A stretch of 64,000 nt of DNA, taken from NCBI RefSeq assembly GCF_020216025.1, contig NZ_JAIWNC010000001.1, positions 62,001 through 126,000 on the forward strand, written 5' to 3'. A program made the translations under genes and the position numbers. This DNA is from Jidongwangia harbinensis. GTDB taxonomy: Bacteria; Actinomycetota; Actinomycetes; Mycobacteriales; Micromonosporaceae. This document shows positions 20,963 to 37,532 of the stretch, one piece after another. The notes beneath the pieces are model-generated. The model was not told where the DNA came from. It made no database searches and saw nothing but the letters and a program-made list of their open reading frames with translations. Numbering within the stretch: the first letter of the stretch is position 1; every line of letters starts with the position of its first letter.

Positions 20963-21559
20963 CTAAATCAGTGAATGCTGGTCCAGTACCGCGGCCCGGG
21001 TCAGTTCCGCCTTGTTTCCCAGTCGGAGTTTGCTGCGAATGCGCTTCACGTAGGTGTCGACCGTGTGCTGGCTGATGCCGAGCGTGCGCGCCACCTGCGC
21101 GTGGGTGCGCCCGAGCGCGATCTGCCCGAGGACCTGCCGCTCCCGATGGGAGAGCACCGGGCGGCCCGGGTCGACCGACCCGTCCGCGGCCGCCGGGGCG
21201 GGCCAGTAGTCACCACCCAGCGCCACGGCGCGGAGCGCGTCCGCGATGACCACAACGTCGGCATCCCGGTGCACCGCGCCGTTCGCGCCCTGCCGCCGGT
21301 ATTCGGCGAGCGCGTCGGGGTCCGGCGCGTCGGTCGTCACGAGGACCGGGGCGACCGCCCGGGCACCGGTCAGGAACCGGCCGAACATCTGGCCCGCCAT
21401 TCGCGGATCGACAATTACCATGTCCGCCCGCTCCGACGGTCCCTCCAGCGGCGACGACCGGAAAACGACGACCTGGAATCCCTGTTCAATACATATTCGG
21501 CGGAGGCCGTAAGCGAACGTCGGGCACGTCTCAAATATTTCGACCACGCCCATTCCCAT
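20963..21559 (-). CDS. LuxR-type response-regulator-like transcription factor
   Basis: 198 residues. The N-terminal half is a degenerate receiver domain (MVIVDPRMAG, PVLVTTDAPD, GANGAVHRDAD), so phosphorylation is doubtful. The C-terminal LuxR/GerE helix-turn-helix is complete: LSHRERQVLGQIALGRTHAQ, then LGISQHTVDTYVKRIRSKL. It is divergent from the GT4 gene that opens the biosynthetic cluster and is the best candidate for the pathway-specific regulator. Several in-frame ATG/GTG codons compete; the ATG at 21559 has AAGGA ten bases upstream. The region is a little AT-richer than its neighbours. Confidence 0.88.
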   Translation of the reverse strand: MGMGVVEIFETCPTFAYGLRRICIEQGFQVVVFRSSPLEGPSERADMVIVDPRMAGQMFGRFLTGARAVAPVLVTTDAPDPDALAEYRRQGANGAVHRDADVVVIADALRAVALGGDYWPAPAAADGSVDPGRPVLSHRERQVLGQIALGRTHAQVARTLGISQHTVDTYVKRIRSKLRLGNKAELTRAAVLDQHSLI

Positions 21560-21691
21560 CCCTATCACAATCCTTCCCCGTGATCGATAGGTAGACGGAA
21601 GGCAGCCGCCGCGGCACACCAGGATGCCGGCAGGAATCGGCTTTGATCGACCGTTGTCACTATCCTGCGGTACGTGTCGCGACTCGGCAAG

Positions 21692-21758: not shown

Positions 21759-22934
21759 ATGCCGCTGCGGCTTGGACTGATGACTCCCGAGTGGTACGCG
21801 GACGAGGCCGGCGGGGGCATCGGCACGTACTGCCGGGTGCTGGCCGGCGCGGCCGTGTCCGCCGGCCACCATGTGGTGGTGTTCGCCGCGACCGGACGGG
21901 CCCGGCGGGTACGGCGACCGCAGGACCGGCTCACCGTGATCCCGGTGCCGGTGGGCGGGCTCCCCGCGGGGCAGGCGGCCCGGGCGTTCGCCGCCCGCTT
22001 CGACCGGTTCCGCGCGGAGGGCGGCCGGATCGACGTGATGGAGGCCGCCGAGTTCGGTGGCGTCGCGGCGGAACTGTCCGCCGTGGACGTGCCCGTGACC
22101 ACCCGCCTGCACACCCCGCTGGCGACGCTGCTGGCGCGCAACGAGGGGCGGCGCATCTACCGCGACGACGCCGAGCGGTGCGCCCTGGAGGAGCGTCAGG
22201 TGCGCGGCTCCGCGCTGGTGACCAGCCCGTCACGGTGGCTGGCCGGGGAGGCCCGGAACCTGTGGGGGCCGATCAGCCCGCCGGTGGTGATCCCCAATCC
22301 GGTGCCGATCCCGCCGGCCTGCGCACCGATGCCGCCGCGGCCGGCGCGGGTGCTCTATCTGGGCCGCCTGGAGTACCGCAAGGGCGTGCTCACGCTCGCC
22401 GCCGCGGCGCGGCGGTGGCTGTCCGCCGAACCGGCCGCCCGGCTCACGTTCGCCGGGGCGGACACCAGATGGGCGGGCCGGTCGATGCGGGACCGGATGC
22501 GCGAGATCCTCGGTCCGCACGGCGACCGCTGCCGGTTCCTGCCGTCCCGTCCGCCGGCCGCCGTCGCCGCGCTGATCGACCGCGCGCATCTGGTGGTGCT
22601 GCCCTCGCTGTACGAGAACTTCGCCTACGCGGGCCTGGAGGCGATGGCCCGGGGCCGCCCGGTCCTGGCCACCACCGGGAGTGGCTTCCCGGAGATGATC
22701 TCGCCGGGCCGGACCGGGTTCCTGGTGCCGCCCGGCGACCCGGACGCGCTCGCGGACGCGCTGACCGAGCACACCCGCGACACCGCCGGCCTGGCGGCGA
22801 CCGGCCTGCGCGCCCGCCACGCCGCCGGCCGGTTCGCCGCCGCCCCGGTCGCCGCCCGGCTCTGTGCCGCCTACGGCCGGATCGCGACCCGGCCGCCGGC
22901 GCGCCGCGCGGCGGCACCGGCCGGAAGGGCCTGA
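21759..22934 (+). CDS. glycosyltransferase family 4
   Basis: 391 residues with a GT-B fold. The N-terminal Rossmann half contains GGGIGTYCRVLA (acceptor loop). The C-terminal half has VLYLGRLEYRKGV and the retaining-GT E-x7-E region (LPSLYENFAYAGLEAMARGRPVLAT). It uses a nucleotide-activated sugar in the cytoplasm. It opens a rightward operon with a HAD phosphatase eight bases on and a sugar epimerase. That trio suggests a sugar is synthesised or isomerised, attached and dephosphorylated for the cluster product. The ATG at 21759 was chosen; its ribosome site is weak. Confidence 0.92.
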   Translation: MPLRLGLMTPEWYADEAGGGIGTYCRVLAGAAVSAGHHVVVFAATGRARRVRRPQDRLTVIPVPVGGLPAGQAARAFAARFDRFRAEGGRIDVMEAAEFGGVAAELSAVDVPVTTRLHTPLATLLARNEGRRIYRDDAERCALEERQVRGSALVTSPSRWLAGEARNLWGPISPPVVIPNPVPIPPACAPMPPRPARVLYLGRLEYRKGVLTLAAAARRWLSAEPAARLTFAGADTRWAGRSMRDRMREILGPHGDRCRFLPSRPPAAVAALIDRAHLVVLPSLYENFAYAGLEAMARGRPVLATTGSGFPEMISPGRTGFLVPPGDPDALADALTEHTRDTAGLAATGLRARHAAGRFAAAPVAARLCAAYGRIATRPPARRAAAPAGRA

Positions 22935-22941
22935 CGCGGGG

Positions 22942-23799
22942 ATGGTCCCGGAACGCGACACGACCCCGTTCCTGCCCGGCGGGCAGCTGGTGGCCTGTGA
23001 CCTCGACGGCACCCTGCTGCGCGACGACGGCACGGTCAGCCCGGCCACCCGCCGCACGCTCGACCGGCTGGCCGCCGCCGGGATCGGTTTCCTGGTCGTC
23101 ACCGGCCGCCCGGTGCGCACGCTGCCGGCGGCGCTGCGGTACCTCCGCGCACCCGGACTCGTCGTCTGCGTCAACGGCGCGGCCTGTTACGACCCGGACG
23201 CCGACCGGGTCCTCGCCCGGGCCGCCGTCGCGCCGGCCGCGCTGGCCGAAGCGGTCGACCGGCTGCGGCACCTGTTCCCGGACGTGGTGTTCGCGGCCGA
23301 GGTCGACGGCGGGCGATGGCTGATGTACGAGCCGGCCTATCCGCTGGACCCGCGCACGCCGTGGTCGCGGCGGATCGGCCTGACCGCCCTGATCCGCCGG
23401 CCGGTGTGCAAGTTCCTGGCGAAGGTCCGGGACGAGGACCCGGACGACCTGCTGGCCGCCGTCGGAACCGCGCTGGACGGGGTGGTCGAGGTCGGCACCA
23501 CCCGCTGCCCGGGCGTCCTGGAGATGACCGGAGCGGGCGTGACGAAGGCCGCCGCGGTGTCCCGGCTGGCGGCCGCGGCCGGCATCCCGGCCGCCCGGGT
23601 GACCGCCTTCGGCGACATGCCCTGCGACCTGTCCATGATGGAGTGGTCCGGTGCCGGGGTCGCGGTGGCCAACGCCCATCCCGCCGTCCTGGCCCGGATC
23701 ACCACGGTGACCTCGTCCAACCAGGACGACGGCGTGGCCCGGTACCTGGACCGGATGCTCGCCGGGCCGGCACCGGAGCCGGTACGGCGGAGCGGGTGA
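22942..23799 (+). CDS. HAD-superfamily (Cof-type, IIB cap) phosphatase
   Basis: 285 residues. Motif I is CDLDGTLL (nucleophile and acid Asp), motif II is VVTGRPVR, and motif IV is GDMPCDLSMMEWSG with metal Asp, with a IIB cap domain between. The fold dephosphorylates sugar or sugar-nucleotide phosphates. It starts eight bases after the GT4 stop and ends two bases before the epimerase, so the three are one operon. It may remove a phosphate from a glycosylated intermediate, as phosphatases in aminoglycoside pathways do, but the substrate is inferred. The ATG at 22942 is preferred over the longer frame. Confidence 0.85.
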   Translation: MVPERDTTPFLPGGQLVACDLDGTLLRDDGTVSPATRRTLDRLAAAGIGFLVVTGRPVRTLPAALRYLRAPGLVVCVNGAACYDPDADRVLARAAVAPAALAEAVDRLRHLFPDVVFAAEVDGGRWLMYEPAYPLDPRTPWSRRIGLTALIRRPVCKFLAKVRDEDPDDLLAAVGTALDGVVEVGTTRCPGVLEMTGAGVTKAAAVSRLAAAAGIPAARVTAFGDMPCDLSMMEWSGAGVAVANAHPAVLARITTVTSSNQDDGVARYLDRMLAGPAPEPVRRSG

Positions 23800-23801: not shown

Positions 23802-24779
23802 ATGGCGCCACGGGTGCTGGTGACCGGCGGCGCCGGCTACCTGGGCGGTCACGTCGTCCTCCGGCTGTGCGCGGCCGGCGCCCGGGTCGGTGTGCTGGAC
23901 AGCTTCGTCACCGGGACCCGGGCGAACCTGGAACCCGCGATCCAGCTCGGGCTGCGGACGGACGACGTGCTGGTCGGCGACATCCGGGACCGGCAACTGC
24001 CGCACCGGGTCGCGGCGTGGGACCCGGAGGTCGTCATCCACCTCGCCGCCCAGCCCTCGGTGGCCGCCTCGGTCCGCGATCCGCTGCTGGACGCGGAGGT
24101 GAACGTCCTCGGCACGCTCAACGTGCTGACCGCCGCGACCCGCGCCGCCGTCCGCAAGGTGGTCTTCGCCTCCAGCGGCGGGACGGTGTACGGCTCGCTG
24201 CCGCCGCGCCTGGCGCGCGCCACGGAACAGACCGCCCACCGCCCGGAGAGCCCGTACGGGTTGAGCAAGGCGACGGCGGACCGGTACCTGCGCCTGCACG
24301 AGCGCCTGCACGGCCTGCGCTTCACCAGCCTGGCGCTGGGCAACGTGTACGGCCCGCGCCTGGACGGCGGCCGCCCGGCCAACGTCGTCGGCGGGTTCGT
24401 GTTCGCGTTGCTCGCCGGGCACCGGCCGGTGCTGCACGGCGACGGCCGGCAGACCCGGGACTTCGTCCACGTCACCGACGTGGCGCGGGCCTTCGAGTCG
24501 GCCTGCGACCGGGGCGACGGCACGTTCCTCAACATCGGCACCGGGGTGGAGACCAGCGTGCTGCGGCTGCTGCGGATCGTCGCCGGGGCGGCCGGCGCCG
24601 GCCGGGAACCGCCGGTCGAGCACCGGGCCGCGCCACCGGGCGAGGCGCGGCGGGTGTGCCTGGACATCACGGCCGCGGGTACCCACCTCGGCTGGCGGCC
24701 CCGGCTGCGGCTGGCCGACGGGGTGGCCCGGCTGGTGGCGGAGGTCCGGGGACTACCCGCCGCCGCGGCCGGCGGCTGA
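23802..24779 (+). CDS. NAD-dependent nucleotide-sugar epimerase/dehydratase (GalE-like)
   Basis: 325 residues of the extended SDR type. GGAGYLGG binds NAD near residue 8, the catalytic YGLSK gives Tyr and Lys, and Ser lies in VFASSGGTVYG. LGNVYGPR and the substrate-binding C-terminus (FLNIGTG, GWRPR) fit UDP-sugar 4-epimerases. It presumably supplies a hexose donor for one of the cluster's glycosyltransferases. Its 3' end overlaps the convergent GT2 gene by 27 bases. Confidence 0.9.
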   Translation: MAPRVLVTGGAGYLGGHVVLRLCAAGARVGVLDSFVTGTRANLEPAIQLGLRTDDVLVGDIRDRQLPHRVAAWDPEVVIHLAAQPSVAASVRDPLLDAEVNVLGTLNVLTAATRAAVRKVVFASSGGTVYGSLPPRLARATEQTAHRPESPYGLSKATADRYLRLHERLHGLRFTSLALGNVYGPRLDGGRPANVVGGFVFALLAGHRPVLHGDGRQTRDFVHVTDVARAFESACDRGDGTFLNIGTGVETSVLRLLRIVAGAAGAGREPPVEHRAAPPGEARRVCLDITAAGTHLGWRPRLRLADGVARLVAEVRGLPAAAAGG

Positions 24780-25658
24780 CCGGCGTCCCGGGCCGGCGGC
24801 GCCGGTGTCCCGCTCGGGGTGGGCGCCCGCCCGGGCGTTGCCGTGGCGGTAGGGGCCGAAGCCGTCGATCATCTCCTCGGCGATGGCGAAGTTGCGGCGC
24901 CTCCCCCGCGCGCGTTCGTCCGGGCTCAGCGAGCCGCCTTCCTGGTGGTACACGTGCGCGTCCGGCAGGTAGGCGAACGACCGGCCGAGGCGGTGCAGCC
25001 GGTAGCCCAGCTCGATGTCCTCGTAACCCCAGCGGCCGTCGAACACCGCTTCGAACCGCTCGTCGCCGAGGCAGCTGCGGTGCATGGCCATGTCGCTGGC
25101 GTACATCAGGTCGTAGGGACGGTCGTGCGCGGCGAGCGCGTGCAGCTCGGGCAGTCGCCGTTCCACGTCCAGCCCGTAGTTGGAGGTGGACCGGACCGGC
25201 GGCAGGCGGTCGAGCAGGCGGCGGTCCGCGGCGACGTCGGCGGCCGCCAGCCCGGCCGGGTCGACGAACACCCGGTGGCCGAGGAAGACCGTGTGGTGGG
25301 AGCGGGCCACGGCCGCCGCGTAGGCCGGAATCAGCCCGGTCGAGGGCACGCAGTCCGCGTCCAGGAACACCAGGCACGGATGGCGGGCCTGCTCGATGCC
25401 GATGTTGCGGGCCGCGCCGGGCTGGAAGTTGCGGCCGCCGAGCCCGGTGCGGAAGACGAAGCGCACGCCGGGGTGCGCGGCGGCGAACCCGCGCGCCGCC
25501 CGCCGGAAGCCGGGCCCGCTCTCGTTGTCGACGGCCAGCACCTCCCACGGCCGGCCGGAGGCCCGGCAGTCCGCGGCGACCGCGGCGAGCGTGCGGTGCG
25601 CGATCGGCCACGCCTCGAACGTGGGGACGATGACCGTGACCCCGGCGGCGTGCGTCAC
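24753..25658 (-). CDS. glycosyltransferase family 2
   Basis: 301 residues with a GT-A fold: VTVIVPTFEAW, VDNESG, and a DxD-like FLDADCVP near residue 109. GRWGYEDIELGYRLHRLG supplies the ED catalytic base region. The last 30 residues are Gly/Arg-rich and probably disordered. It is the last gene of the radical SAM operon; its GTG start overlaps the preceding stop (GTGA). It probably adds a sugar to the radical-SAM-processed intermediate, acceptor unknown. Confidence 0.88.
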   Translation of the reverse strand: MTHAAGVTVIVPTFEAWPIAHRTLAAVAADCRASGRPWEVLAVDNESGPGFRRAARGFAAAHPGVRFVFRTGLGGRNFQPGAARNIGIEQARHPCLVFLDADCVPSTGLIPAYAAAVARSHHTVFLGHRVFVDPAGLAAADVAADRRLLDRLPPVRSTSNYGLDVERRLPELHALAAHDRPYDLMYASDMAMHRSCLGDERFEAVFDGRWGYEDIELGYRLHRLGRSFAYLPDAHVYHQEGGSLSPDERARGRRRNFAIAEEMIDGFGPYRHGNARAGAHPERDTGAAGPGRRSAAGRGGG

Positions 25659-26740
25659 GCCCGCTCACCCGGCCGGACCGGAATGCCCAGCAGGACCGGC
25701 CCCACCGCCTCGTTGAAGTCGCGGTAACGGGAGCACGCACCGCAGGACGGCAGGCGGGCCGGGCGCAGCCGGCGCAGGGTGTCCTGGTAACCCTCGCCGC
25801 CCAGCAGGTCGGCCACCGACGTCTCGGCGAGCGAGCCGATCCGGTTCGGCCGGTCCTGTACGTGGCAGCACGGGTACACGTCGCCGTCCGGCTGGATCAC
25901 GAAGTGGCCCATCGGCACCACGCAGTCGCCGGTGAACGGGCCGTCGTGGCGCAGCCGGTCCAGTTCCAGCGTGACCCCGGCCGCCCGGGCACGCTCGGCC
26001 AGGTCGGCGAGCGCCCGGCGCACGTCGGCCAGCGAGTCGGCGGACAACTTCTCGCCCTTCGCCTCCTCCGCCCACGGGCCCCAGTCGTTGTCCTCGCGGC
26101 CGGACAGCGAGCGGAGCCAGCGCATGTCCAGGCCGACCGGGAACACCCGCAGGTGGTCCGGGAGCACCGGCAGCGTCAGCAGGTCCCGGACGGTGTGCGC
26201 GGTGGACGCGGACACCACCGTGTTGACCACCAGCCGGACGTGCGGCGCGCGCAACCGCAGCAGCGCCATGCCGCGGGTGGCCCGCTGGAACAGGCCGCGC
26301 ATCTTGCGGACCTCGTCGTGCACCACCGGGTCGGCGCTGTCCAGCGACACCGTGATCTGGCGTAGCCCGGTCAGCGTGGCCAGCCGGGCCACCCGGGTCT
26401 CGTCCAGCATGCTGCCGTTGGTGATGATGGCGGTGCCCACGCCGAGACCGTCCACGTGCTGGATGATGTCCAGGAAGTCCGGGTACAGCATCGGTTCGCC
26501 GCCGGTGAACAGCACGTGGGCCAGGCCGGCCGCGGCCAGGTCGGTGAAGATCTCCCGCCACCGCTCGACCGGCAGCATGCCCGCCCGGTCGTACTTCCAC
26601 ACGCCGCAGAATTTGCACTTGGCGTTGCATCGCCAGTCCAGCCGCACCTCCAGCTCCAGCGCGCCGATCGGGCGCAGCTCCCGGTACGCCTGGCGGAACT
26701 CCTCCGGGTGCTCCCGGATCCGCCTCATCACCGTGTCCAC
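25655..26740 (-). CDS. radical SAM protein with SPASM/twitch-type C-terminus (1 of 4)
   Basis: 361 residues. Cys38, Cys42 and Cys45 (CNAKCKFC) bind the S-adenosylmethionine [4Fe-4S] cluster; FTGGEPML is the GGEP motif. C-terminal cysteines in GDCVVP, YPCCHV and SCGAC can hold one or two auxiliary clusters. Such enzymes modify peptides or, as in BtrN of butirosin, oxidise cyclitols and sugars. The GTG start at 26740 has GGGAG upstream and lies three bases after the DUF362 stop. The sequence is the most divergent of the four copies; it has SLDSADP instead of the SLDGxG shared by the others. Confidence 0.92.
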   Translation of the reverse strand: MDTVMRRIREHPEEFRQAYRELRPIGALELEVRLDWRCNAKCKFCGVWKYDRAGMLPVERWREIFTDLAAAGLAHVLFTGGEPMLYPDFLDIIQHVDGLGVGTAIITNGSMLDETRVARLATLTGLRQITVSLDSADPVVHDEVRKMRGLFQRATRGMALLRLRAPHVRLVVNTVVSASTAHTVRDLLTLPVLPDHLRVFPVGLDMRWLRSLSGREDNDWGPWAEEAKGEKLSADSLADVRRALADLAERARAAGVTLELDRLRHDGPFTGDCVVPMGHFVIQPDGDVYPCCHVQDRPNRIGSLAETSVADLLGGEGYQDTLRRLRPARLPSCGACSRYRDFNEAVGPVLLGIPVRPGERA

Positions 26741-26743
26741 GGT

Positions 26744-27736
26744 TCACTCCCTCTCCGGTGGGCCCGCACGCAGGCGGCGGAACTCCTCGATCGCGTACCA
26801 CGGGTTCTTGCCGTGCATCCGCTCCAGCCGGTGCCCCGACTCCGTCTCCGCCGCCGCGGCCGGGGGCAGGAACTCCGGCAGCGCCGCCGGCAGGAACGGC
26901 GCCTCCTGGACCGCCAGCAGGGTCGCCTCGTCGACGTCGGCCGGATCGTTGCCGAGGAACAGCCCGATGTCCGGGACGAAGGCCGGCGAGGACAGGCCCC
27001 AGCAGTCGCAGTAGGGGTGGACGTTGAGCGCGACGTTGAGACAGAGCACCTTCTCGGCGGGCAGGCCGCGCAGCACCTCGTGCGCGGAGCGGGCCAGCGC
27101 GGCGGAGAAGTACCGCCCGCGCGCCACCCCGGCGGACAGCGCCTCGTGCGGCACGGCGGCGGACTCCACGACCTCGTGCCGCCAGCCGTCGTGCCCCTCG
27201 AACGTGTGGATGTGGTTGCGGGTGCTCTGTGCCACGCAACCGATCCCGATGTTCTTGATCGACGCGCCGAAGCCGCAGGAGGCGTGACCCTTCGCGTGCG
27301 AGACGACGATCAGCCCGTCGGCGTGCGCGACCATGCCGGCGACCTGGATCGCGTCGAAGTACGGCGAGTCGTCGACCCGGCGTTCCTCCAGATACCGGTC
27401 CACCACGCCGGAGATCGGGTAGACCGGCGCGCCGAGCGTCTCCCTGCTGTAGCCGCGCTTCCAGGCGCTGCGGGCGGCGCGGTGCTCGTCCACCACGTAC
27501 ACGAACGCGTCCGAGGCGTCGAAGCGCTCCACCAGCGCCCGGACGAACTGCGGGTGCACGGTGGTGTAGCTGTCCGCGTCGCCGACGTGCAGCTTGACGG
27601 CGATCTTGTCACGCGGCCCGAACGCCCGCTCCGGCCGGATCTCCGCCAGCAGGTCGCGGAACCGGCGCAGCAGGGTCGCCCCGCGGCTCACCGCGGAGAT
27701 CTGCGCCGGTATCGAGTAGACCTTCTCGGGGAGCAT
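26744..27736 (-). CDS. DUF362-domain protein
   Basis: 330 residues matching the DUF362 core: IAVKLHVGD near residue 46, then SHAKGHASCGFGASIKN and IGIGC. Conserved cysteines occur in HPYCDCWG. No ferredoxin [4Fe-4S] repeat is present, unlike many DUF362 proteins. The family's function is not established, though it is often seen with iron-sulfur enzymes. Its place between radical SAM genes suggests it serves their clusters or electron supply, or catalyses its own step. GGAGG lies five bases before the ATG at 27736, and the preceding gene's tail overlaps it by 128 bases. Confidence 0.85.
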   Translation of the reverse strand: MLPEKVYSIPAQISAVSRGATLLRRFRDLLAEIRPERAFGPRDKIAVKLHVGDADSYTTVHPQFVRALVERFDASDAFVYVVDEHRAARSAWKRGYSRETLGAPVYPISGVVDRYLEERRVDDSPYFDAIQVAGMVAHADGLIVVSHAKGHASCGFGASIKNIGIGCVAQSTRNHIHTFEGHDGWRHEVVESAAVPHEALSAGVARGRYFSAALARSAHEVLRGLPAEKVLCLNVALNVHPYCDCWGLSSPAFVPDIGLFLGNDPADVDEATLLAVQEAPFLPAALPEFLPPAAAAETESGHRLERMHGKNPWYAIEEFRRLRAGPPERE

Positions 27737-28757
27737 CGGTGCCTCCAGCGCGTCGGCGGTTCGCGGACCGGCGGGCAGTGCGCGGGGCGAACCGGCCGGT
27801 GAGGTAGCCGGCCGAGATCGTCAGCATCGCGGCGGCGTGCAGCGCCGCCTGCGGCAGGACCGGCCGGTCCGGGTCCCGCCGCCGCCAACCGGTCGCGTGC
27901 CGGCCGCCGGTGGCCAGCACGGCCGTCGCCGCGAGCACCGGCACGAACCGGGAACGCGGCCGGGCCGCCACGGCGACGGCGGCGATCGCCGTCACGCCGG
28001 CCGTCCGGAAGGCCCGGCGCCGCCACCCGAAGCAGTCGGGAAAGGCACCACGGGTACGCCGGTCGAGCTGCCCCAGCGCCCGGGCCTCCGCGGCCACCTT
28101 GGTCAGGAACGCCCCGACGCCCTCCCGGGCCAGGTGCGCCGGGCGGTGGCCGAGCGTGGTCGCGCCGCGGAACCGGCCGGAGCGGCGCAGCCGGTACGCC
28201 AGCTCCTTGTCCTCGCACGCCGCGAGGTCCTCGTCGAACGGGCCGGGCGGCAGGGCCGCGCGGCGCGCCACGAGATGCACCGTGCTGCACCGGGCCACCA
28301 CCCCGTCGTCGCACGTCGGGTACAGCGTCGGGACGAGCGTGGCCAGCCAGGGCCGGCGGCCGGGCGGCGTCACCAGGTCGAACCGCCCCAGCACCAGGTC
28401 GACCGGCTGCTCCACGGCGGCCGCCACCTCGGTCAGCCAGTCCGGGCCGACCCGGACGTCGGCGCTGAGGAACGCCACCCAGGGGTACCGGGCGGCGGCG
28501 ACGCCGGCGTTGCGCTGGTGGCCGTACCCGGGCCGGTGGCATCGGACCACCCGGACCGGGACCGGCGCGCCGGTGCGCCGGGACCAGGTGCCGGCCCGGT
28601 GCACCGTGTCGTCGGCGGAGGCGCCGTCCACCACCAGCACCTCGACCGGCACCGTGCGGGCCGCGGCCGCCCGGCCGATCGCGGTCAGGCAGCCGTCGAT
28701 GTAGCGGGCCTCGTCGCGGCAGATCACCACCACGCTCACGCCGGTCGGTCCGCTCAT
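27609..28757 (-). CDS. glycosyltransferase family 2 with hydrophobic C-terminus
   Basis: 382 residues. The GT-A core reads GVSVVVICRDEARYIDG, VLVVDGASADDTV, FLSADVRVGPDW and a CEDKELAYRLRRSG region. Two hydrophobic segments (about residues 245-285 and 300-325) suggest membrane association, so the acceptor may be lipid-linked. The ATG at 28757 forms an ATGA overlap with the radical SAM gene upstream. The last roughly 45 residues are low-complexity and overlap the DUF362 gene by 128 bases, an unusually long overlap; the true end may be shortened by a sequencing frameshift. Confidence 0.82.
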   Translation of the reverse strand: MSGPTGVSVVVICRDEARYIDGCLTAIGRAAAARTVPVEVLVVDGASADDTVHRAGTWSRRTGAPVPVRVVRCHRPGYGHQRNAGVAAARYPWVAFLSADVRVGPDWLTEVAAAVEQPVDLVLGRFDLVTPPGRRPWLATLVPTLYPTCDDGVVARCSTVHLVARRAALPPGPFDEDLAACEDKELAYRLRRSGRFRGATTLGHRPAHLAREGVGAFLTKVAAEARALGQLDRRTRGAFPDCFGWRRRAFRTAGVTAIAAVAVAARPRSRFVPVLAATAVLATGGRHATGWRRRDPDRPVLPQAALHAAAMLTISAGYLTGRFAPRTARRSANRRRAGGTDAPREGLLDTGADLRGEPRGDPAAPVPRPAGGDPAGAGVRAA

Positions 28758-29779
28758 GGGCGCGGTCCGGGTGGTCCGAGCAGCGGTGAGCCGAAGCCGA
28801 CGTAGCAAGGGCTGGGACAGCTGGAGCAGAAGCGTTCCTCGATGGTCTGCACGATCCGCAGCCGGCGCTCACCGTGCCAGATCTGCTCGAACGACTCCTC
28901 GGTCAGCGACCCGAACAGCAGGTCGGACGAGCGCCAGCAGGGTCGTACGTCGCCGTTCGGCTCGAGGAAGAACCCGCCGCGCTGGAAGATGCACGGTGCG
29001 CTGCGGCGCTCGCCGCGCAGCGTGGCCTGCAGGCTGCGGTAGAAGGACAGCGGCGGGCTGATCCGGCCGGCGTGCGGTTCCAGCGTGTCCAGGAACGCGA
29101 TGAACCGGTCCACCATCTCCCGGTCCGCGCTGAACCGTTCGACCCGGTCGGCGTTGTTCATGTAGACGTCGGTCTGCATCGGGAAGGTGAACGAGACGGC
29201 GATGTCCCGGTCCACGGCGAACCGCAGGACGTCGTCCAGGTGGTCGATGTTCTTCCAGGTGGCGGTGGCGGACACGCCCAGGCTCAGCTCGGTGGACGGG
29301 CGGTCCAGCGCGCGGATCGCGTCGATCGTGGCCACGGTGCGGGCGAAGGCGCCGGGCACGCCGCGGATCTCGTCGTGCAGGTCGCCCACCCCGTCCAGGC
29401 TGATGAACAGGTAGAGCTTCTTGCCCCGGTCCCGGGCCACGTCGATGACACCGCGGATCCGCGCGAAGCTCGGCCGCAGCATGCCGTTGGAGTTGAGCGA
29501 GAAGCTCTCCAGGCGCGGGCAGCAGTCCACCAGCCGCGCGACGAGCTGCGGCAGGTCCTTGCGCAGGGTGGGTTCCCCGCCGGTGAAGTTGATCGCCCGC
29601 AGGGTGCCCGCCACCGACGGGTGCCCGAAGATCTCCGCGAGGTGGTCGTCGGAGAGCTGGTCCCGCTGGTTCAGGTCGCCGAGGGCGCACATGTCGCAGT
29701 TGGCGTTGCAGAGGTACGTCACCGGTACGACGGCCACTTCGGGCCAGCCGACCGCGGGGTCAGCGTGGGGCAGGGCCAT
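28754..29779 (-). CDS. radical SAM protein with SPASM/twitch-type C-terminus (2 of 4)
   Basis: 341 residues. CNANCDMC gives Cys24, Cys28 and Cys31; FTGGEPTL is the GGEP motif; LFISLDGVGDLHDEIRGVP is shared with the next two copies. The C-terminus has APC, RPCW and CSSCPSPC for an auxiliary cluster. GGAGG precedes the ATG at 29779, which overlaps the previous gene by 20 bases. The paralogues probably act in sequence on one scaffold or on different sugars; no precursor peptide is encoded in the operon. Confidence 0.92.
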   Translation of the reverse strand: MALPHADPAVGWPEVAVVPVTYLCNANCDMCALGDLNQRDQLSDDHLAEIFGHPSVAGTLRAINFTGGEPTLRKDLPQLVARLVDCCPRLESFSLNSNGMLRPSFARIRGVIDVARDRGKKLYLFISLDGVGDLHDEIRGVPGAFARTVATIDAIRALDRPSTELSLGVSATATWKNIDHLDDVLRFAVDRDIAVSFTFPMQTDVYMNNADRVERFSADREMVDRFIAFLDTLEPHAGRISPPLSFYRSLQATLRGERRSAPCIFQRGGFFLEPNGDVRPCWRSSDLLFGSLTEESFEQIWHGERRLRIVQTIEERFCSSCPSPCYVGFGSPLLGPPGPRP

Positions 29780-30761
29780 CCGAGTTCCTCCACGCGTAGC
29801 AGTTCGTGGTGCAGGTCCGGCACGTCTCGGCCGCGCCCTCGGCGAGTAGCTGCGGGCGGCGGGCCAGCGCCTCGTCCCACGCCTGGGCCGTACCGTCGGC
29901 CGGCAGCGGTCCGCCGAGGACCATCCGCTGGCTGGTGCCGCAGATCGCGGTGGTGCCGTCCGAGGTGAGCAGCACGCCCTTGTGCAGCAGGCGGCAGGGC
30001 ACGGTGCGCGGTTCGCCCCGCAGCACCCGCCGCAGATCGGTGTCCAGCCGCTGGGTGCTGCGCCGGGTGAGGAAGTCCGCGGCGCGGGCGGACTGCTCGG
30101 CGTCCAGCCGCACGTCGCGGTAGAGCGGCAGGCTGTTGATGTAGTGGTCGGACCGGTTCACCACGGCGTACGAGACCGGCAGGGCCAGTTCGGCGGCGTG
30201 GTCGGCCAGCTCGTCCAGCGCCGACACGTTGAGCTTGTTGATGACGCAGGTGAGCGCGACCGCCACCCCGGGATGGCGGCGGGCCTCGGCGAGGAACCGG
30301 GAGACGTCGGCGAACGCGCCCGGCCGGCGGCGCACCCGGTCGTGCACCTCGCCGACGCCGTCCAGCGACACGTAGAGGTCCAGCGGTGTGCCGCCGAGGT
30401 GGCCGCACAGCTCGGACAGGCCGGTCAGCGCCGCCGTCACCGGGACGCCGGCGGTGCTCACGCTCAGCCGCTCGAACCGGGACCGGGCGGCGGCGAGCAC
30501 CGGAAAGAGCCGGCGGGCGGCGGGGATGACGAGCGGGTCGCCGCCGGTGAGGTTGACCTCCTCCCACCGGTCGGCCTGGCCCGGCGGCCGGGCCAGCGCG
30601 GTGCGCAGGGCGCCGGCCGGCAGCACCGTGTGCGGGCGGCTGTCCGGCAGGCCGCAGAACACGCAGTCGCATCCGCAGGCGCTGGCCAGCGACGCGATCA
30701 GGATGCCGCGGGCCCGCCGCGCCCCGGCCGGGGTCCGCTCGGCCTGCTCGGCGACGGTCAC
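29760..30761 (-). CDS. radical SAM protein with SPASM/twitch-type C-terminus (3 of 4)
   Basis: 333 residues. ACGCDCVFCG supplies Cys29, Cys33 and Cys36 plus an extra Cys31 inside the loop. The usual GGEP motif reads GGDP (NLTGGDPLV). SLDGVGEVHDRVRRRPGAF places it with copies 2 and 4. C-terminal cysteines lie in VPCR, ICGTS and CRTCTTNC. The GTG at 30761 overlaps the preceding stop (GTGA) and has GGGAG upstream, so it is preferred over the 20-codon-longer frame. Confidence 0.9.
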   Translation of the reverse strand: MTVAEQAERTPAGARRARGILIASLASACGCDCVFCGLPDSRPHTVLPAGALRTALARPPGQADRWEEVNLTGGDPLVIPAARRLFPVLAAARSRFERLSVSTAGVPVTAALTGLSELCGHLGGTPLDLYVSLDGVGEVHDRVRRRPGAFADVSRFLAEARRHPGVAVALTCVINKLNVSALDELADHAAELALPVSYAVVNRSDHYINSLPLYRDVRLDAEQSARAADFLTRRSTQRLDTDLRRVLRGEPRTVPCRLLHKGVLLTSDGTTAICGTSQRMVLGGPLPADGTAQAWDEALARRPQLLAEGAAETCRTCTTNCYAWRNSDGPAPR

Positions 30762-31759
30762 ACCAGCGCTCCCACGGCGAGATCCCAGTCCTCGTAGGAG
30801 TTGGAGAAGCAGGACTCGCACTTGCCCGGGATGAGGGTGTCCTGGCAGCTCTTGCGCCGGGCCCCGCGCCAGATCGTCTCGAAGTCGTCGGTGAGCAGGT
30901 CACCGATGTAGAAGTCCAGGAACGTGCCGCAGATGTAGGTCTTGCCGTCCGGCATCAGCACGAAGCCCTTGTCCGGGAAGAAGCAGCCGCGGCTGCGCCG
31001 GCCGGTGCGCAGCGTCTCCAGCATGGTGGCGTAGAAGCGGCTGGAGAAGTTGATGCTCTCCGGGTAGCGGCACACCTCGCTGATCGCCGACCGGACGATC
31101 TCGAACTGCTCGTCGGTGACCTGGAAGCGGCGCTCCAGCCCCGCTCCCCCGATGAAGACCTCGGGCCGGGCGGCCAGGTTGTAGTCCACCCGTACGCCGA
31201 GCGCGCGCACGTAGTGCAGGACCGGGAGGATCTGGTCGGCGTTGCGGTCGGTGATGGTGAAGCTGGCGGTGACCCGCAGGGTGTCGGGCCACCGTCCGGT
31301 CGCCTCGCCCAGGAACCGCAGCGCCTCGTCGGCCCGTTCGAACGCGCCCGGGTGGCGGCGGTGCCGGTCGTGGGCCTGGCCGAGTCCGTCGAGCGAGATG
31401 TACACCCGGAGCTTGACGCCGCGGTCCCGGCACTGCGGCAGCACCTGCTCCAGCGTCGCCTCGATCTGCGGGCGCAGGTGGCCGTCGGTGTTGATGCAGA
31501 TCTCCCGCAGGTTGGCGTACCCGCTGATCATCTCGCTGGTCAGCGCCGCGATCCGGGGGTGGATGAACGGTTCGCCGCCGCTGAGGTTGACCGACTCCAC
31601 GTGCGCGCGCAGGAACTCGTCGCCGGCCACCCGGGTCAGCAGATCGGCGCCGGAGTGCTCCTTCGCCGTCTCGGGCAGCCGCCAGATGCCGCAGCTGCGG
31701 CACTTGCTGTTGCAGGTCATGGTGATCGGGAAAATCATGACCCGTGGGTAGCTGCTCAC
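30758..31759 (-). CDS. radical SAM protein with SPASM/twitch-type C-terminus (4 of 4)
   Basis: 333 residues. CNSKCRSC gives Cys16, Cys20 and Cys23; LSGGEPFI is the GGEP motif; YISLDGLGQAHDRHRRHP is nearly the same as in copy 3. C-terminal cysteines in RGCF, YICGTF, KSCQ and CESC suit an auxiliary cluster. The GTG at 31759 has GGGAGGAA upstream and overlaps the stop of the GT2 gene (GTGA). Copies 3 and 4 have identical length, indicating tandem duplication followed by divergence. Confidence 0.92.
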   Translation of the reverse strand: MSSYPRVMIFPITMTCNSKCRSCGIWRLPETAKEHSGADLLTRVAGDEFLRAHVESVNLSGGEPFIHPRIAALTSEMISGYANLREICINTDGHLRPQIEATLEQVLPQCRDRGVKLRVYISLDGLGQAHDRHRRHPGAFERADEALRFLGEATGRWPDTLRVTASFTITDRNADQILPVLHYVRALGVRVDYNLAARPEVFIGGAGLERRFQVTDEQFEIVRSAISEVCRYPESINFSSRFYATMLETLRTGRRSRGCFFPDKGFVLMPDGKTYICGTFLDFYIGDLLTDDFETIWRGARRKSCQDTLIPGKCESCFSNSYEDWDLAVGALV

Positions 31760-32673
31760 TGGCGTTCCTCCCGAGATGGCCGGTCGGTGGGCGCCGCGGG
31801 GCCCGCCGCTGGTGCGGCGGTCGATCCGCGGCCGTGCACGACGAACAGGCTCACCGATGCGATGAGCAGAAAGAGGTCTACCGCGAGGAACGCCGGACGC
31901 CGGGCGCGCAGGTCCGCGCCGATCGCGGTGCGGATCTGGTCGTGCGGGCGCCGGTGCATTCGCAGCGCCGCGCGTACCGGGCCGACCCCCGGGGAACCGG
32001 CGTTCACGGCATGGCTGAACGCGCCGTAGGACCACACCTTGCGGGGCAGGGTGCGCAGCGTCTCGCGATGGTCGTGCCAGACCACGGCGGCCGGGCGGTA
32101 CGCCAACCGGCCGCCGGCCGCGCGCAGCCGGCGGCAGAAGTCCACGTCCTCGTACGCGATCGTGTAGCGCGGGTCGAACCGGACGCCGGCCAGCCGGGTC
32201 ACATCCAGCAGCAGGTTGCCGCCGGAGAGGTGATCGGGGTCGTCGAGATCGGTGGTACCGCGGTCCTGCCGGAGGTGAACCGCCTTCCAGCGCTCGGCCA
32301 GCGTCTCCGCCCGCAGTTCCTCCTGCCGTCCGCCGGCCACCGCCGCGCCGTCGGCCAGCACGGGCAGCAGGGTGTCCAGCCAGTCCGGCTCCGGATAGCA
32401 GTCGGCGTTGAGGAAGGCGAGGTAGCGGGTCGTGCAACTGTCCAGGGCGAGGCTGCGGGCGACGCCGAGGCCACCGGCGCCGGGCACCTGGACCACCTCG
32501 GCGCCGGCGGCGCGGGCGATCCGCGCGGTGCGGTCGGTGGAGCGGTCGTCCAGCACCACCACCCGGGCCGGCCGGACGGTCGACGCGGCGACGGCGGCGA
32601 GGCAGCGGGCCAGGGTGCGTTGTTCGTTGCGGGCCGGAACGAAGACCGTGACGTCGTGGCTGGCGCGTGCCAT
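31756..32673 (-). CDS. glycosyltransferase family 2, first gene of the radical SAM operon
   Basis: 305 residues with GT-A motifs VTVFVPARNEQ, VVLDDRSTDRT, FLNADCYPEPDW and IAYEDVDFCRRLRAAG. A membrane helix lies near residues 262-285. The ATG at 32673 with GAGGGGG upstream is chosen over a 19-codon-longer frame that lacks a ribosome site. It leads eight coupled genes running to 24753, so its promoter probably drives them all. Confidence 0.88.
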   Translation of the reverse strand: MARASHDVTVFVPARNEQRTLARCLAAVAASTVRPARVVVLDDRSTDRTARIARAAGAEVVQVPGAGGLGVARSLALDSCTTRYLAFLNADCYPEPDWLDTLLPVLADGAAVAGGRQEELRAETLAERWKAVHLRQDRGTTDLDDPDHLSGGNLLLDVTRLAGVRFDPRYTIAYEDVDFCRRLRAAGGRLAYRPAAVVWHDHRETLRTLPRKVWSYGAFSHAVNAGSPGVGPVRAALRMHRRPHDQIRTAIGADLRARRPAFLAVDLFLLIASVSLFVVHGRGSTAAPAAGPAAPTDRPSREERQ

Positions 32674-32707
32674 GGACACCCCCTCGGTGGCCACGATCCG
32701 GTCACCG

Positions 32708-32722: not shown

Positions 32723-32748
32723 GTCCCCAATAGACGTGACAGTCGGTC

Positions 32749-33801
32749 TCAGTGCCTGCCCGATGCGGGTTTGCGGGCCACCAGGACGTCCCGGATGATC
32801 GCCTGGTCCACCCGGTGCCGCAGGTTCAGGTACGGCCCGTCGTCCATGACCTCCAGGCCGGCGTCGGTCAGCACCTTGGCGGCGTCGTCCCGGCTGGCCA
32901 CGTAGGTGTTCCAGGAGATGCCGAGCGCACCGCCCGGCCGCAGCAGCCGCGCCCACACCGGCGCACCGGCCGCCAGCAACGCCAGCGGATCCCGGGACAG
33001 GCCCTTCGCCTCGGTCCGGCTGCCGTGCTGCACGCCGTACGGGGCGTCCGCCACCACCAGGTCGATCGTGGCCGGCCGGAAGAACTCACCCGCCCGGGTG
33101 GTGTCGGCGTTCACCACGTCCAGCTGGAGGACGTCGCCGGACCGGTACTCCTCCTTCGAGGGGGCGAGTTCGACGCGCAGGCGGCGGCCCACCACCCGCC
33201 GTTCGCGCCGCACCGGGCCGGACTCCAGCACCCGGTGCTTGATCCGCTTGCGCTTCAGCCAGGTGGTGATGAACGCCTGGTACGCCTCGAAGTCCTTCTG
33301 GTCGACGTCCACCCCGGCGGCGTCGAAGCCGTACATCAGCGCCTGGTTCAGCGTGGTGCCCCGGCCGCACAGCGGATCGAGCACGCGGAACCGGCGTTCC
33401 AGCATCTCACCGGCCCGGTCCGAGGCGAGCAGCGTCGCGTTGAGCAGCAGCTTGGTGAACTGTTCGTTGGTCTTGCCGGAGTACTTCTGGATGGTGATCA
33501 GGTCGTCGTCGAACCGGTCCAGCCGCCGCAGCTCCACCGGCCGCAGCAGATCACCGACGAACTCGAACAGCGCGTAGACCGACGACAGGTTGCCCAGCAA
33601 CGCCGTGTCCCGCTCGTCCAGCCGGTCCGCCTCGAAGGTGACGTAGCGGGCGCCGCCGATGGTCGCCACGTCCGACTCACCGATCCGCCCGCCCAGCACC
33701 GACCGGCTGAACAGCGCCAGCTCGGCCCTCGTCAGGTCGACCGAGGACTCGGCGTAGACCCGGTTGGTGGCCGGCAGGATCAACAACCCGTAGCGCGCCA
33801 T
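32749..33801 (-). CDS. TRM11/DNA-methylase-like SAM-dependent methyltransferase
   Basis: 350 residues. An N-terminal region of about 130 residues is followed by LDPLCGRGTTLNQAL (SAM-binding motif I, near residue 140) and DAPYGVQHG, which replaces the D/N-PP-Y catalytic motif of amino-methyltransferases. The arrangement fits tRNA guanine-N2 methyltransferase-like proteins. It could be a housekeeping gene inside the cluster or a self-resistance RNA methyltransferase. Start 33801 (ATG) is preferred; a GTG six codons upstream is possible. It is divergent from the carbamoyltransferase. Confidence 0.82.
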   Translation of the reverse strand: MARYGLLILPATNRVYAESSVDLTRAELALFSRSVLGGRIGESDVATIGGARYVTFEADRLDERDTALLGNLSSVYALFEFVGDLLRPVELRRLDRFDDDLITIQKYSGKTNEQFTKLLLNATLLASDRAGEMLERRFRVLDPLCGRGTTLNQALMYGFDAAGVDVDQKDFEAYQAFITTWLKRKRIKHRVLESGPVRRERRVVGRRLRVELAPSKEEYRSGDVLQLDVVNADTTRAGEFFRPATIDLVVADAPYGVQHGSRTEAKGLSRDPLALLAAGAPVWARLLRPGGALGISWNTYVASRDDAAKVLTDAGLEVMDDGPYLNLRHRVDQAIIRDVLVARKPASGRH

Positions 33802-33918
33802 ATCGCGGCAGTATTTCACGGACCGTGCGGGCCGCCGCGCCGGCCGTCCCCTCTTCTCGTGACGTGCCCGGCCCTCGGCGGTTGGGGACCATGGGGCCCG
33901 GCTGCGGAAGGGCTACCC

Positions 33919-35511
33919 ATGTGGACCTTGGGCATCAACTGGAAATGGCACGACGGCGCCGCCGCCCTGGTGGACGGCGACGGGCGGCTGTGGGCCCTGG
34001 CCGAGGAGGAACGGTTCACCCGGGTGAAGCACGCCTGGGGCGCGTACCCGGTCCGGGCCGCCCGGTTCTGCCTGGACCGCGCCGGGATCGACTGGCCGGA
34101 CCTGGACACCGTGGTGATCGGGTGGGACCTGCCGCAGCTGCTGCCGTGGACCGACGCGGACCGGGACGAGCTGTACGTTGCGCTGTTCGGCCGCGCCGCC
34201 GCCGGGGCGCGGAAGCCCGCCCTCGCGTTCGTCGACCATCACCTGGCGCACGCCGCGTCCGCCTTCCACGCCTCCGGCTTCACCCGTGCGGGTGTGCTGG
34301 TGGTGGACGGCGCCGGCGAGCGGGACGCGATCTCGGTGTACGCCGCCGGCCCCGGCGGGCTGGCCCGCAAGCGCCACTGGCCGCGGGCCTTCTCGCTGGG
34401 CGCGATGTACGAGGCGGCCACGCACGTGGTGGGCCTGGGCGACCTCAACGCCGGCAAGACGATGGGACTGGCCGCGTACGGCGACGGGCACGACAGCGCC
34501 CTGCTCCCGGTCGGGGACCTGGTCGGCGACGGCAGCCCGCTGTTCGACTGGCCGGCCGACCTCTCCTACGGCGACTTCACCGGCCGGTGGCGGGACCATC
34601 TGGCCGACCGTTTCGGCAAGGTCACCCGGGCACCGGCGGACCTGGACCAGGACCCGGTGGCGGTGCGGGTGGCGGCGAGTGCCCAGCGGACCACCGAGGA
34701 GGCGATCCGGGCGCTCTACACCGAGACGAGGTGCCTGACCGGCGAGCCGGCGATCTGCCTCGCCGGCGGGGTCGCCCTCAACTGCGTGGCGAACGGCCGC
34801 CTCCCGGAACCGCTCTACGTGCCGCCGTTCCCGCACGACGCCGGGGTGGCGCTCGGTGCCGCCTGGACGGTCCGCCCGCCGCGGCCGGCCGCCGAGCCGA
34901 TCACGCCCTACCTCGGCACCGACATCGCACCGGGGGACGTGCCGGACCTGCCGGAGTCCGGGTTCACGGTCCGCCCGTTCGCTCCGGAGGCGGTCGTCGA
35001 CCTGCTGCTCGCGGGCCGGATCGGCGCGGTGGCCGAGGGGCGCGCCGAGATCGGGCCGCGGGCCCTGGGCCACCGCTCGATCATCGCGCTGCCGCGCCCG
35101 GCGGCCGTCCGGGACCGGATCAACACCATCAAGGGCCGGGAGCCGTGGCGGCCGCTGGCGCCGGTGGCCGACGCCGGCCACGCGCCGCGGTTCTGGCCCG
35201 GCCAGGGGCGGCGGGAGCTGTACATGGTCGGTTCGGCGGTCGTCTCCGCGGCGGGCCGGCGCGAGCTGCCCGCCGCCACCCACGTCGACGGCACCACCCG
35301 GCCGCAGACCGTCCCGACCGGCCACGCGCCGGTGGTGGAGAGCCTGCTCGCCGGTCTGGGCTCGGCCGGTGTCGCCCCGGTCCTGGTCAACACGTCGTTC
35401 AACGGTGCGGCGGAGCCCATCGTGGACACCGCCGCCGACGCGGTCCGTACGTTCGTCGGGCTGGGCCTCGACTTCCTGGTGCTGGCGGACCGGCTGATCC
35501 GGCGCCGGTAA
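33919..35511 (+). CDS. NodU/CmcH-family O-carbamoyltransferase
   Basis: 530 residues. The Kae1-like N-terminal half has the metal-binding HHLAHAASAF near residue 110 and nucleotide-binding VVDGAGERD. AGKTMGLAAYG and CLAGGVALNCVANG are family signatures. The YrdC-like part has EIGPRALGHRSI and VNTSFNGAAEPIV. Family members transfer carbamoyl from carbamoyl phosphate, with ATP, to a hydroxyl of a sugar or other scaffold, as in tobramycin, novobiocin and cephamycin. GGAAGG precedes the ATG at 33919. It predicts a carbamate on the product. Confidence 0.93.
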   Translation: MWTLGINWKWHDGAAALVDGDGRLWALAEEERFTRVKHAWGAYPVRAARFCLDRAGIDWPDLDTVVIGWDLPQLLPWTDADRDELYVALFGRAAAGARKPALAFVDHHLAHAASAFHASGFTRAGVLVVDGAGERDAISVYAAGPGGLARKRHWPRAFSLGAMYEAATHVVGLGDLNAGKTMGLAAYGDGHDSALLPVGDLVGDGSPLFDWPADLSYGDFTGRWRDHLADRFGKVTRAPADLDQDPVAVRVAASAQRTTEEAIRALYTETRCLTGEPAICLAGGVALNCVANGRLPEPLYVPPFPHDAGVALGAAWTVRPPRPAAEPITPYLGTDIAPGDVPDLPESGFTVRPFAPEAVVDLLLAGRIGAVAEGRAEIGPRALGHRSIIALPRPAAVRDRINTIKGREPWRPLAPVADAGHAPRFWPGQGRRELYMVGSAVVSAAGRRELPAATHVDGTTRPQTVPTGHAPVVESLLAGLGSAGVAPVLVNTSFNGAAEPIVDTAADAVRTFVGLGLDFLVLADRLIRRR

Positions 35512-35519: not shown

Positions 35520-37184
35520 TCAGGGCCGGCTCGCCCGGACCGCCTCGGTGAACTCGGCGAACCGTGGCCGGTCGTAGTGCACCGACAGCGGCAGCATCAC
35601 GCCCAGCCGCTCCTCGACCAGGGAGTTGCACAGCACGGTGAGCAGGGAGTCGGCACCGAGCGCGAAGAAGTCGTCGTCCGGCCCGATCGCCGGGCGGCCC
35701 AGCAGTTCGGTCCAGATCTCCCGCACCGTGCCGGCGACCGGGTCCTCCCCGGTGGCCGGCGCCGCCCGGACCAGATCCTCGGCCCGGCGGGCGATGTCGG
35801 CGCGGCGCAGCTTGCCCTGCCCGTCCCGGGGCACCTCGGCCACGCCGAGGACGACGGCCGGGGTGGCCGCCGCGCCGAGCCGGTCCCGCAGGTGCCGGCG
35901 CAGCTCCTCGTCCCTCGCCTCGCCCCGCCACACCACGGCGACCGCGAGCCGGTCACCCGGCGCCCGTTCGACGACGGCCGCTCCGGCGTCGACGGCCAGT
36001 CCCGAGGCCAGTGCCGCCATCTCCACGGCGGCCAGCGACACCACGGCACCGCCCGCGCTGACCAGGTCGGCGTCCCGGCGTTCGAACACCAGGGTGCCGT
36101 CGGCCTCGAGCCGGCCGACGTCCGCGGTGTCCACCCACCGGGTCACCGGGCCGTCCGGGGCGTACGCCAGCTGAATCGCCCCCGGCGTGCCGGCCGGCAC
36201 CGGTCGGCCGTCCGCGCCGAGGATCCGGATCCGGGTGCCGGCCAACGCCCGGCCCACCGATCGGGGGTCGTCGCGGCCGTACCGCATCACCGTGCCGGCC
36301 GGCCAGGCCTCGCTGGTGGTGTAGACGTTGAGCACGGTGAGCCAGGGCAGCCGGTCGGCGACGTCCTCGACCAGGTCCGCGGCGGCCGGTGCCATGCCGA
36401 GGCGCAGCACCCGGACGCCGCGCAGTCGTCGCAGGTCCGCCTCCGGCAGGGCGAGCAGCTGTGCCGCCAGCGCCGGTGCGAGCAGGACCGCGCCGGCCCC
36501 GGCGCGTTCGGCCAGGGCGGCGAATCCGGACGGCGACCAGGTGGTGCAGCAGGCCAGCCCGCCGGACCGGCCCAGGAGCGCGTCCACCAGGGCGGTGTGT
36601 GCGGCGGTGGTGCCCGGCGGCGCGGTGAGCGCGACCGGCCCGCGGGGTTCGCCGCCGGGGCGGCCGGTGGCCGCCATCCGGGCCGCCGCGGTGACGGCGA
36701 CGACGGCCGGCTCGCCGGTCGTGCCGGAGGAGACCAGATACTCCAGCACGTCGCCGGCCGGCCGGGCCCGGTCCGGCGGGGACACCTCGGCCACCTGGTA
36801 GCCGCTCCCGCCGGGGTGCCCGCGAACCAGGCACCGCACCGGGAGCCGGTCCAGCAGTGCCTGCCGGCGGTCGTCGCCGCCGCCCGCGGTGACCAGGGCG
36901 GGGACCACGCCGGCCAGGTGGCATCCGAGGTACGCCCCCACGAACAGCGGCCACGCCCGGCCGTCGAACTCCAGCACCACCACGTCGCCGGAGGCCACGC
37001 CGTGGTCGCGGAGCAGGGTCCGGCAGTCGTCGGCGAGGGCGCCGATCCGGCGCCGGGTGACGTCGGTCCCGTCGTCGAGGAACAGCAGAACCGAATCCGG
37101 GTCGTGCCCGGTGCCGGCGCGCAGTGCCCGGCGGTAGTCGTCCGGGACGATGTCCACGGTGGACGGTGCCATTTCAGGGACCAC
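35520..37184 (-). CDS. adenylation-carrier didomain protein (A-PCP)
   Basis: 554 residues. Residues about 1-465 form an AMP-binding domain: VSSGTTGEPAVV (A3 region), VYTTSEAWPAG in place of the usual NxYGPTE, DTADVGRL (A7), and GQGKLRR with the A10 Lys. Residues about 470-550 are a carrier domain with FFALGADSL, Ser being the phosphopantetheine site. No condensation or reductase domain follows, so it loads its own carrier and hands the acyl group to a partner. The GTG at 37184 has AGAGG seven bases upstream; ATG 37172 is the alternative. The substrate is not predictable by eye. Confidence 0.88.
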   Translation of the reverse strand: MVPEMAPSTVDIVPDDYRRALRAGTGHDPDSVLLFLDDGTDVTRRRIGALADDCRTLLRDHGVASGDVVVLEFDGRAWPLFVGAYLGCHLAGVVPALVTAGGGDDRRQALLDRLPVRCLVRGHPGGSGYQVAEVSPPDRARPAGDVLEYLVSSGTTGEPAVVAVTAAARMAATGRPGGEPRGPVALTAPPGTTAAHTALVDALLGRSGGLACCTTWSPSGFAALAERAGAGAVLLAPALAAQLLALPEADLRRLRGVRVLRLGMAPAAADLVEDVADRLPWLTVLNVYTTSEAWPAGTVMRYGRDDPRSVGRALAGTRIRILGADGRPVPAGTPGAIQLAYAPDGPVTRWVDTADVGRLEADGTLVFERRDADLVSAGGAVVSLAAVEMAALASGLAVDAGAAVVERAPGDRLAVAVVWRGEARDEELRRHLRDRLGAAATPAVVLGVAEVPRDGQGKLRRADIARRAEDLVRAAPATGEDPVAGTVREIWTELLGRPAIGPDDDFFALGADSLLTVLCNSLVEERLGVMLPLSVHYDRPRFAEFTEAVRASRP

Positions 37185-37241
37185 GGGCCACCTCTGCGAC
37201 AAACGATGCGGTACGCCGCTGGAGCTTATAGCGTTCCGGGC

Positions 37242-37532
37242 GTGAGCACAGGAGCGCCGCACCACGCCGAACCCGAGCCCGCGCCCGACTGGGACGAACG
37301 CTTCGAGGCCGTCCTGCGCCGGTACTGCACGCGGGCCGACCCGGCGGCGCCGATCGACCCGCACGCCCCGCTGGCCGCGCAGGGCCTGGACTCCCTGGAC
37401 CTGGTGGGCATCGTCTACGACGTGGAGGAGACGTTCGGGGTCGAGATACCGGCCACCCTGCTCGGCGCCCCGCCCGGACCGTCCGCCGCGGACCTCTGGC
37501 GGGAGGTCGTCAGGACACTCCGGCCCGCTTGA
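37242..37532 (+). CDS. stand-alone acyl carrier protein
   Basis: 96 residues. APLAAQGLDSLDLVGIVYD holds the phosphopantetheine Ser51, with PATLLGAPPGPSAADLW completing the four-helix bundle. The GTG at 37242 is divergent from the A-PCP gene and lies shortly after a TATAGC box, so a leaderless or short leader is likely. It is one of three free carriers in the cluster. Its 3' end overlaps the convergent gene by 23 bases. Confidence 0.9.
   Translation: MSTGAPHHAEPEPAPDWDERFEAVLRRYCTRADPAAPIDPHAPLAAQGLDSLDLVGIVYDVEETFGVEIPATLLGAPPGPSAADLWREVVRTLRPA

Follow-up and report, generated by a model that had tools for sequence, protein, structure and literature searches.

Four twitch-type radical SAM enzymes and a predicted LarA-like DUF362 protein in a glycosyltransferase operon of Jidongwangia harbinensis

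Twitch-type radical S-adenosylmethionine (rSAM) enzymes of aminoglycoside and sugar-nucleoside pathways, BtrN, NeoN and BlsE among them, carry a CxxxCxxC motif together with one four-cysteine auxiliary motif, and HygY and SpeY are reportedly twitch enzymes as well, AviX12 being a further precedent. The same two motifs and sugar-type neighbouring genes are found at an operon of Jidongwangia harbinensis, at positions 24753-32673 of a 64,000-nucleotide stretch (here the window; contig NZ_JAIWNC010000001.1, positions 62,001 to 126,000), in which four rSAM genes stand with a DUF362 gene and three genes for family 2 glycosyltransferases (GT2). In contrast to the described pathways, the four enzymes share one operon, lie nearer to BlsE or SkfB than to BtrN or SpeY and fall below every listed family cut-off; the likeness to NeoN and HygY is drawn from their descriptions. 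The mycofactocin cluster also brings an rSAM (MftC) and a GT2 (MftF) together, and of the listed models MftF comes closest to two of the GT2s here (GT2a and GT2b), but the cassette is far below the model cut-offs, has four rSAMs and showed no conserved precursor in a small open reading frame (ORF) comparison. A carbamoyltransferase encoded close by has TobZ, which acts on tobramycin-type aminoglycosides, as its nearest solved relative (E 4e-79), with the Carbam_trans_N and _C domains both present. The DUF362 protein recalls the LarA/DUF2088 nickel-pincer racemase superfamily (LarA1, malate racemase and the LarAH enzymes), except that it sits in a glycan-type cluster with rSAMs and that its cofactor and substrate are predictions.

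The eight genes are close-packed on the minus strand and transcribed in the order GT2a, rSAM-D, rSAM-C, rSAM-B, GT2b, DUF362, rSAM-A, GT2c. Six of the seven junctions overlap by at least 4 bp, GT2a/rSAM-D, rSAM-D/rSAM-C, rSAM-B/GT2b and rSAM-A/GT2c being 4 bp start/stop overlaps, and DUF362 is parted from rSAM-A by 3 bp. These coordinates and overlaps, with the Pfam domains, bear out the first-pass annotation in treating the set as a single operon. In Rugosimonospora africana the eight genes recur in the same order on one strand at 60-82% identity, and the gene set is a real unit and a conserved actinomycete cassette. With identities to that second locus in brackets, the operon comprises GT2a (31756..32673; PF00535 and, by hydropathy, a C-terminal hydrophobic segment; 60%), rSAM-D (30758..31759, 333 residues; PF04055, SPASM and a predicted structure model; 82%), rSAM-C (29760..30761, 333 residues, the frame being open to 30821; PF04055 and motifs; 73%), rSAM-B (28754..29779, 341 residues; PF04055 and SPASM; 82%), GT2b (27609..28757, open to 28808, with the start picked by its ATGA overlap; PF00535 at E 1e-19; 60%), DUF362 (26744..27736; PF04015, structure model and residue spacing; 77%), rSAM-A (25655..26740, 361 residues; PF04055 and SPASM; 78%) and GT2c (24753..25658; PF00535 at E 1.3e-18; 68%). 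The GT2b frame enters the DUF362 gene by 128 bp (27609-27736) and the R. africana GT2b ends near the DUF362 start, a difference due either to an altered C-terminus or to a sequencing difference.

Our preferred explanation, to which we would give a probability of about 45%, is that the cassette builds a carbamoylated sugar-based natural product whose carbon stereocentres are edited by the four twitch rSAMs and by a LarA-type nickel-pincer DUF362 epimerase. Sugars are favoured because the neighbouring genes include the carbamoyltransferase, a family 4 glycosyltransferase (GT4) and an NDP-sugar epimerase. The presence of a probable nickel-pincer-type enzyme within a four-rSAM pathway is the notable point.

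The predicted structure of the DUF362 protein has the LarA fold (Foldseek and VIA-align on the model). Its residues H85, H151, K161 and H177 are spaced by 66, 10 and 16 positions, exactly as are H108, H174, K184 and H200 of LarA. The counterparts of the LarA cofactor lysine (K161) and nickel ligand (H177) are each kept in 33/33 aligned rows, and those of the catalytic pair in 25/25 cluster-type rows (H85) and 32 of 33 rows (H151). Four of five tested residues and the modelled fold are thus LarA-like, and the protein is probably a nickel-pincer-type enzyme. In the 8 outgroup DUF362 proteins compared (P0147-P0154) a tyrosine replaces the first catalytic histidine without exception and the LarA lysine and nickel-ligand histidine are retained, which suggests that the wider family may likewise bind the nickel cofactor, perhaps using a single base. 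Of the cofactor-synthesis genes, LarB and LarC were searched for; both score over cut-off in both genomes, yet LarB does so in 14/18 relatives as well. Since the LarA enzymes known so far reportedly act on 2-hydroxy acids, DUF362 would more likely act on a uronic, aldonic or glyceric acid unit. The retrieved literature extracts give no function for DUF362, one paper using it there only as an outgroup to LarA; literature searches returned no paper combining 'nickel-pincer' with 'biosynthetic gene cluster' and none joining DUF362 with radical SAM and glycosyltransferase. That this DUF362 protein is a nickel-pincer-nucleotide epimerase of a natural-product pathway, rewriting glycan stereocentres by hydride transfer beside the radical chemistry of four twitch enzymes, is a specific claim that we advance tentatively and regard as doubtful.

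All four rSAMs carry CxxxCxxC, which begins at residue 16-38, and the four-cysteine twitch motif (C-x17-C followed by a C-terminal CxxC), with one additional cysteine in rSAM-B and rSAM-C (CxxCxxxC); Pfam places Radical_SAM in each and SPASM in all but C. The auxiliary-cluster cysteines first proposed for all four copies are therefore there by motif scan, and the copies said to be of equal length, C and D, are so. The C-terminal motif cysteines of rSAM-D are invariant in 30/30 rows of its orthologue alignment and 8 cysteines of rSAM-A in 27/27. As the first reading had it, SLDGxGxxHDxxRxxPGAF is common to B, C and D; as a special signature it was ruled out, since its core SLDG..HD..R occurs in 46 of 88 distant rSAM matches. 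Recent tandem duplication was also rejected, by mutual identities of 23-30% and by separate clades in a tree whose distant rSAM rows were every other one between 250 and 420 residues long (44 rows). There A, B, C and D each form a clade common to J. harbinensis and R. africana, though the B and C clades have two rows each and C joins D at 90/81 only, with long branches flagged. Since each clade is common to both genomes, the four split before the two loci did and are old, separate families.

Certain findings weigh against the preferred explanation. The phosphate-binding R75 of LarA is not kept, Thr58 standing there in a weak profile alignment, and in the Pfam scan at E 0.001 the DUF362 protein matched DUF362 alone and not Lar_N (DUF2088, PF09861); on these two grounds it is counted as a clan relative and not filed as a LarA member. 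A comparison of the protein with PDB sequences gave no match. On the rSAM side the nearest relatives of known structure are the sugar-nucleoside enzyme BlsE or the peptide enzyme SkfB, the likeness to A and B being confined to the common rSAM core, and so the rSAM sequences alone do not decide between sugar and peptide substrates. The original suggestion of sugars or cyclitols by analogy with BtrN is in this way partly sustained: the neighbouring genes favour sugars, but BtrN is not the closest sequence or fold.

If the carbamoylated-sugar explanation holds, the GT4 and the three GT2s would assemble a glycan from NDP-sugars, on which each rSAM would use the 5'-deoxyadenosyl radical to abstract the hydrogen atom of one carbinol C-H. 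In an epimerase route a hydrogen atom would be returned from the opposite face, as in NeoN, and in a dehydrogenase route an electron would pass to the auxiliary cluster, as in BtrN; PMC10991966 gives Cys249 as the NeoN hydrogen donor and cites BtrN as a dehydrogenase. For HygY, one cysteine reportedly decides between the epimer and the ketone. By conservation, the non-ligand cysteines C98 and C240 of rSAM-D (kept in 30/30 and 27/30 rows; numbering of a 343-residue frame) are candidate hydrogen donors. The rSAM-A enzyme would more likely be a dehydrogenase, because every cysteine conserved in its alignment belongs to the radical SAM motif or to the C-terminal set. The DUF362 protein would hold its nickel cofactor via K161 and H177 and, with H85 and H151 as two bases, could invert another hydroxyl-bearing carbon by hydride transfer. 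A carbamoyl cap would be added by the TobZ-like enzyme.

A different role for DUF362 alone, compatible with any account of the rSAMs, is that of a non-catalytic partner that binds nickel or an Fe-S cluster and serves the maturation of, or electron transfer to, the four radical enzymes. Several DUF362 relatives bear the name uncharacterized Fe-S center protein, one outgroup has Fer4 domains, and C243 and C245 are present in 33/33 rows. However, Pfam finds no Fer4 domain in this DUF362 protein, and both LarA catalytic histidines are retained in it, H85 being absent from the 8 outgroup proteins; we consider such a role questionable. The rSAMs and DUF362 might instead act on nucleotide-sugar or cyclitol units before glycosylation, in the manner of BlsE or BtrN, with the GT2s receiving finished unusual sugars. 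This we judge unlikely, for the likeness of A and B to solved relatives is restricted to the rSAM core and the BlsE family model, with a cut-off of 400 bits, scores A to D at only 70, 35, 25 and 28.

Pathways to modified ribosomal peptides normally encode a precursor peptide, and the first-pass annotation had seen none in the operon, an observation that the gap sizes and the small-ORF comparison uphold. From GT2c to the carbamoyltransferase there is no room for one, the largest gaps being 75 bp (32674-32748) and 99 bp (33820-33918); beside GT4 the gap is 184 bp. Among 67 small ORFs of the window (20-120 residues, mostly outside called genes, those inside genes being untested) none was convincingly conserved on the 97 kb R. 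africana contig, the sole match being 17 residues of a 22-residue ORF at 53683 (E 0.002). The missing precursor lowers the likelihood of a ribosomally synthesised and post-translationally modified peptide (RiPP) with a distant precursor. A check for grouping with peptide maturases, proposed at the outset, has a mixed outcome: no listed family model of any kind exceeds its cut-off (the best 25 of 64, 48 and 40 families for A, B and D, and all 23 for C), and SkfB, a peptide enzyme, ranks first among solved matches for rSAM-C, second for rSAM-A and rSAM-B, and first by fold for the rSAM-D model. A RiPP pathway, in which the rSAMs would be SPASM/twitch maturases of a precursor whose gene lies at another place in the genome and the GT2s would glycosylate later, may draw on SkfB, on the many peptide-maturase models that match the rSAM core below cut-off and on MftF as nearest model to GT2a (119 bits, cut-off 280), but it is improbable given the small-ORF result, CxxxCxxC motifs too near the N-terminus to leave space for a leader-binding domain, the lack of any PqqD match by Pfam among 40 frames of the window, and neighbours that indicate sugars.

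Of those neighbours, a LuxR-type regulator (20963..21574, minus strand; PF00196; 40% over 190 residues in R. africana) is followed on the plus strand by the GT4 (21759..22934; Pfam; 52%), a HAD-family phosphatase (22864..23799; PF08282) and the NDP-sugar epimerase/dehydratase (23802..24779; PF01370; 51%). Upstream of the operon on its own strand lies a methyltransferase (32749..33819; 74%) with a DAPY motif by eye, no Pfam match and a weak Trm14-like match (23 bits, cut-off 280), and divergent from it the TobZ-like O-carbamoyltransferase (33919..35511, plus strand; PF02543 and PF16861; 70%). A self-resistance role for the methyltransferase is a guess which, if true, hints at a ribosome-directed product. 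An AMP-forming ligase with a carrier domain (35520..37364, minus strand; PF00501 and PF00550) belongs to the flank and is not conserved, with only partial 26-38% matches in the R. africana contig, to other genes of non-ribosomal peptide synthetase (NRPS) type. Past the cassette, 38427-52728 encodes a BtrH_N protein, whose N-terminus is like that of the butirosin acyltransferase, together with a Pre-ATP-grasp ligase, carrier proteins, a KAS III-like protein and a P450 that most resembles P450-derived glycosyltransferase activators (259 bits, below the cut-off of 343). These genes may acylate the cassette product; a window-wide tblastn listed no match for them above 80 bits on the R. africana contig.

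In R. africana the carbamoyltransferase, epimerase and methyltransferase genes are nearby on the same contig and GT4 directly follows GT2c, whereas in the window GT4 is on the opposite strand, past the genes for the epimerase and the phosphatase. The phosphatase near GT4 there is SurE (PF01975, L009) in place of the HAD enzyme. Outside the core the loci differ, the window having AMP-ligase, carrier-protein and BtrH_N genes and R. africana a phosphopantetheinyl transferase gene and what looks by eye like an NRPS-type set. At L015:8185-9516, beside condensation-domain genes, a carrier domain is apparently fused to a beta-lactamase-like domain (by eye).

The cassette is rare in whole genomes. At E 1e-60 rSAM-D was found in 2 of 354 sampled family genomes (its own and R. 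africana), in its own only among 397 order, 394 class and 296 phylum genomes, and in 0/148 of one other genus, the samples being overlapping draws; the DUF362 query gave 0/3, 0/15 and 0/5 in genome samples. Twenty relatives held no close copy of rSAM-D, only weak rSAM matches, a contig search gave R. africana and one 25% match among the matches listed, and plasmid records held no close rSAM relatives (5 records at 23-26%, 41 records all below 60%). The protein database gave 32 close rows for rSAM-D (53-100% identity, its own included) before a fall to 28%, with 29 aligned relatives at 51-85%; 26 close rows for DUF362 (65-100%, the next at or below 28%); and 28 rows of at least 54% for rSAM-A, of which 27 are relatives at 54-82%. 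For DUF362 and rSAM-A, scoring covered the 7999 and 8000 candidates with the largest word overlap. Left out of counts were P0001 (own), P0031, P0032 and the weaker P0033 onwards (alignment A1, rSAM-D), P0121 (own) and the fragment P0146 (A2, DUF362), and P0155 (own) and P0182 (A5, rSAM-A). Orthologues of rSAM-A, rSAM-D and DUF362 were judged co-located on eight contigs, with Nocardia terpenica and R. africana represented, and Kutzneria kofuensis has DUF362 and rSAM-A. In this comparison contigs of equal length were treated as identical, and the R. africana length was added to the rSAM-D list from the contig search.

The predicted fold, the residue spacing and the cluster-specific second histidine make the DUF362 hypothesis sharply and cheaply testable. 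If it is true, nickel-pincer chemistry would extend to natural products, which would explain why DUF362 travels with four radical enzymes; a nickel cofactor would enter secondary metabolism and the DUF362 family would gain a function.

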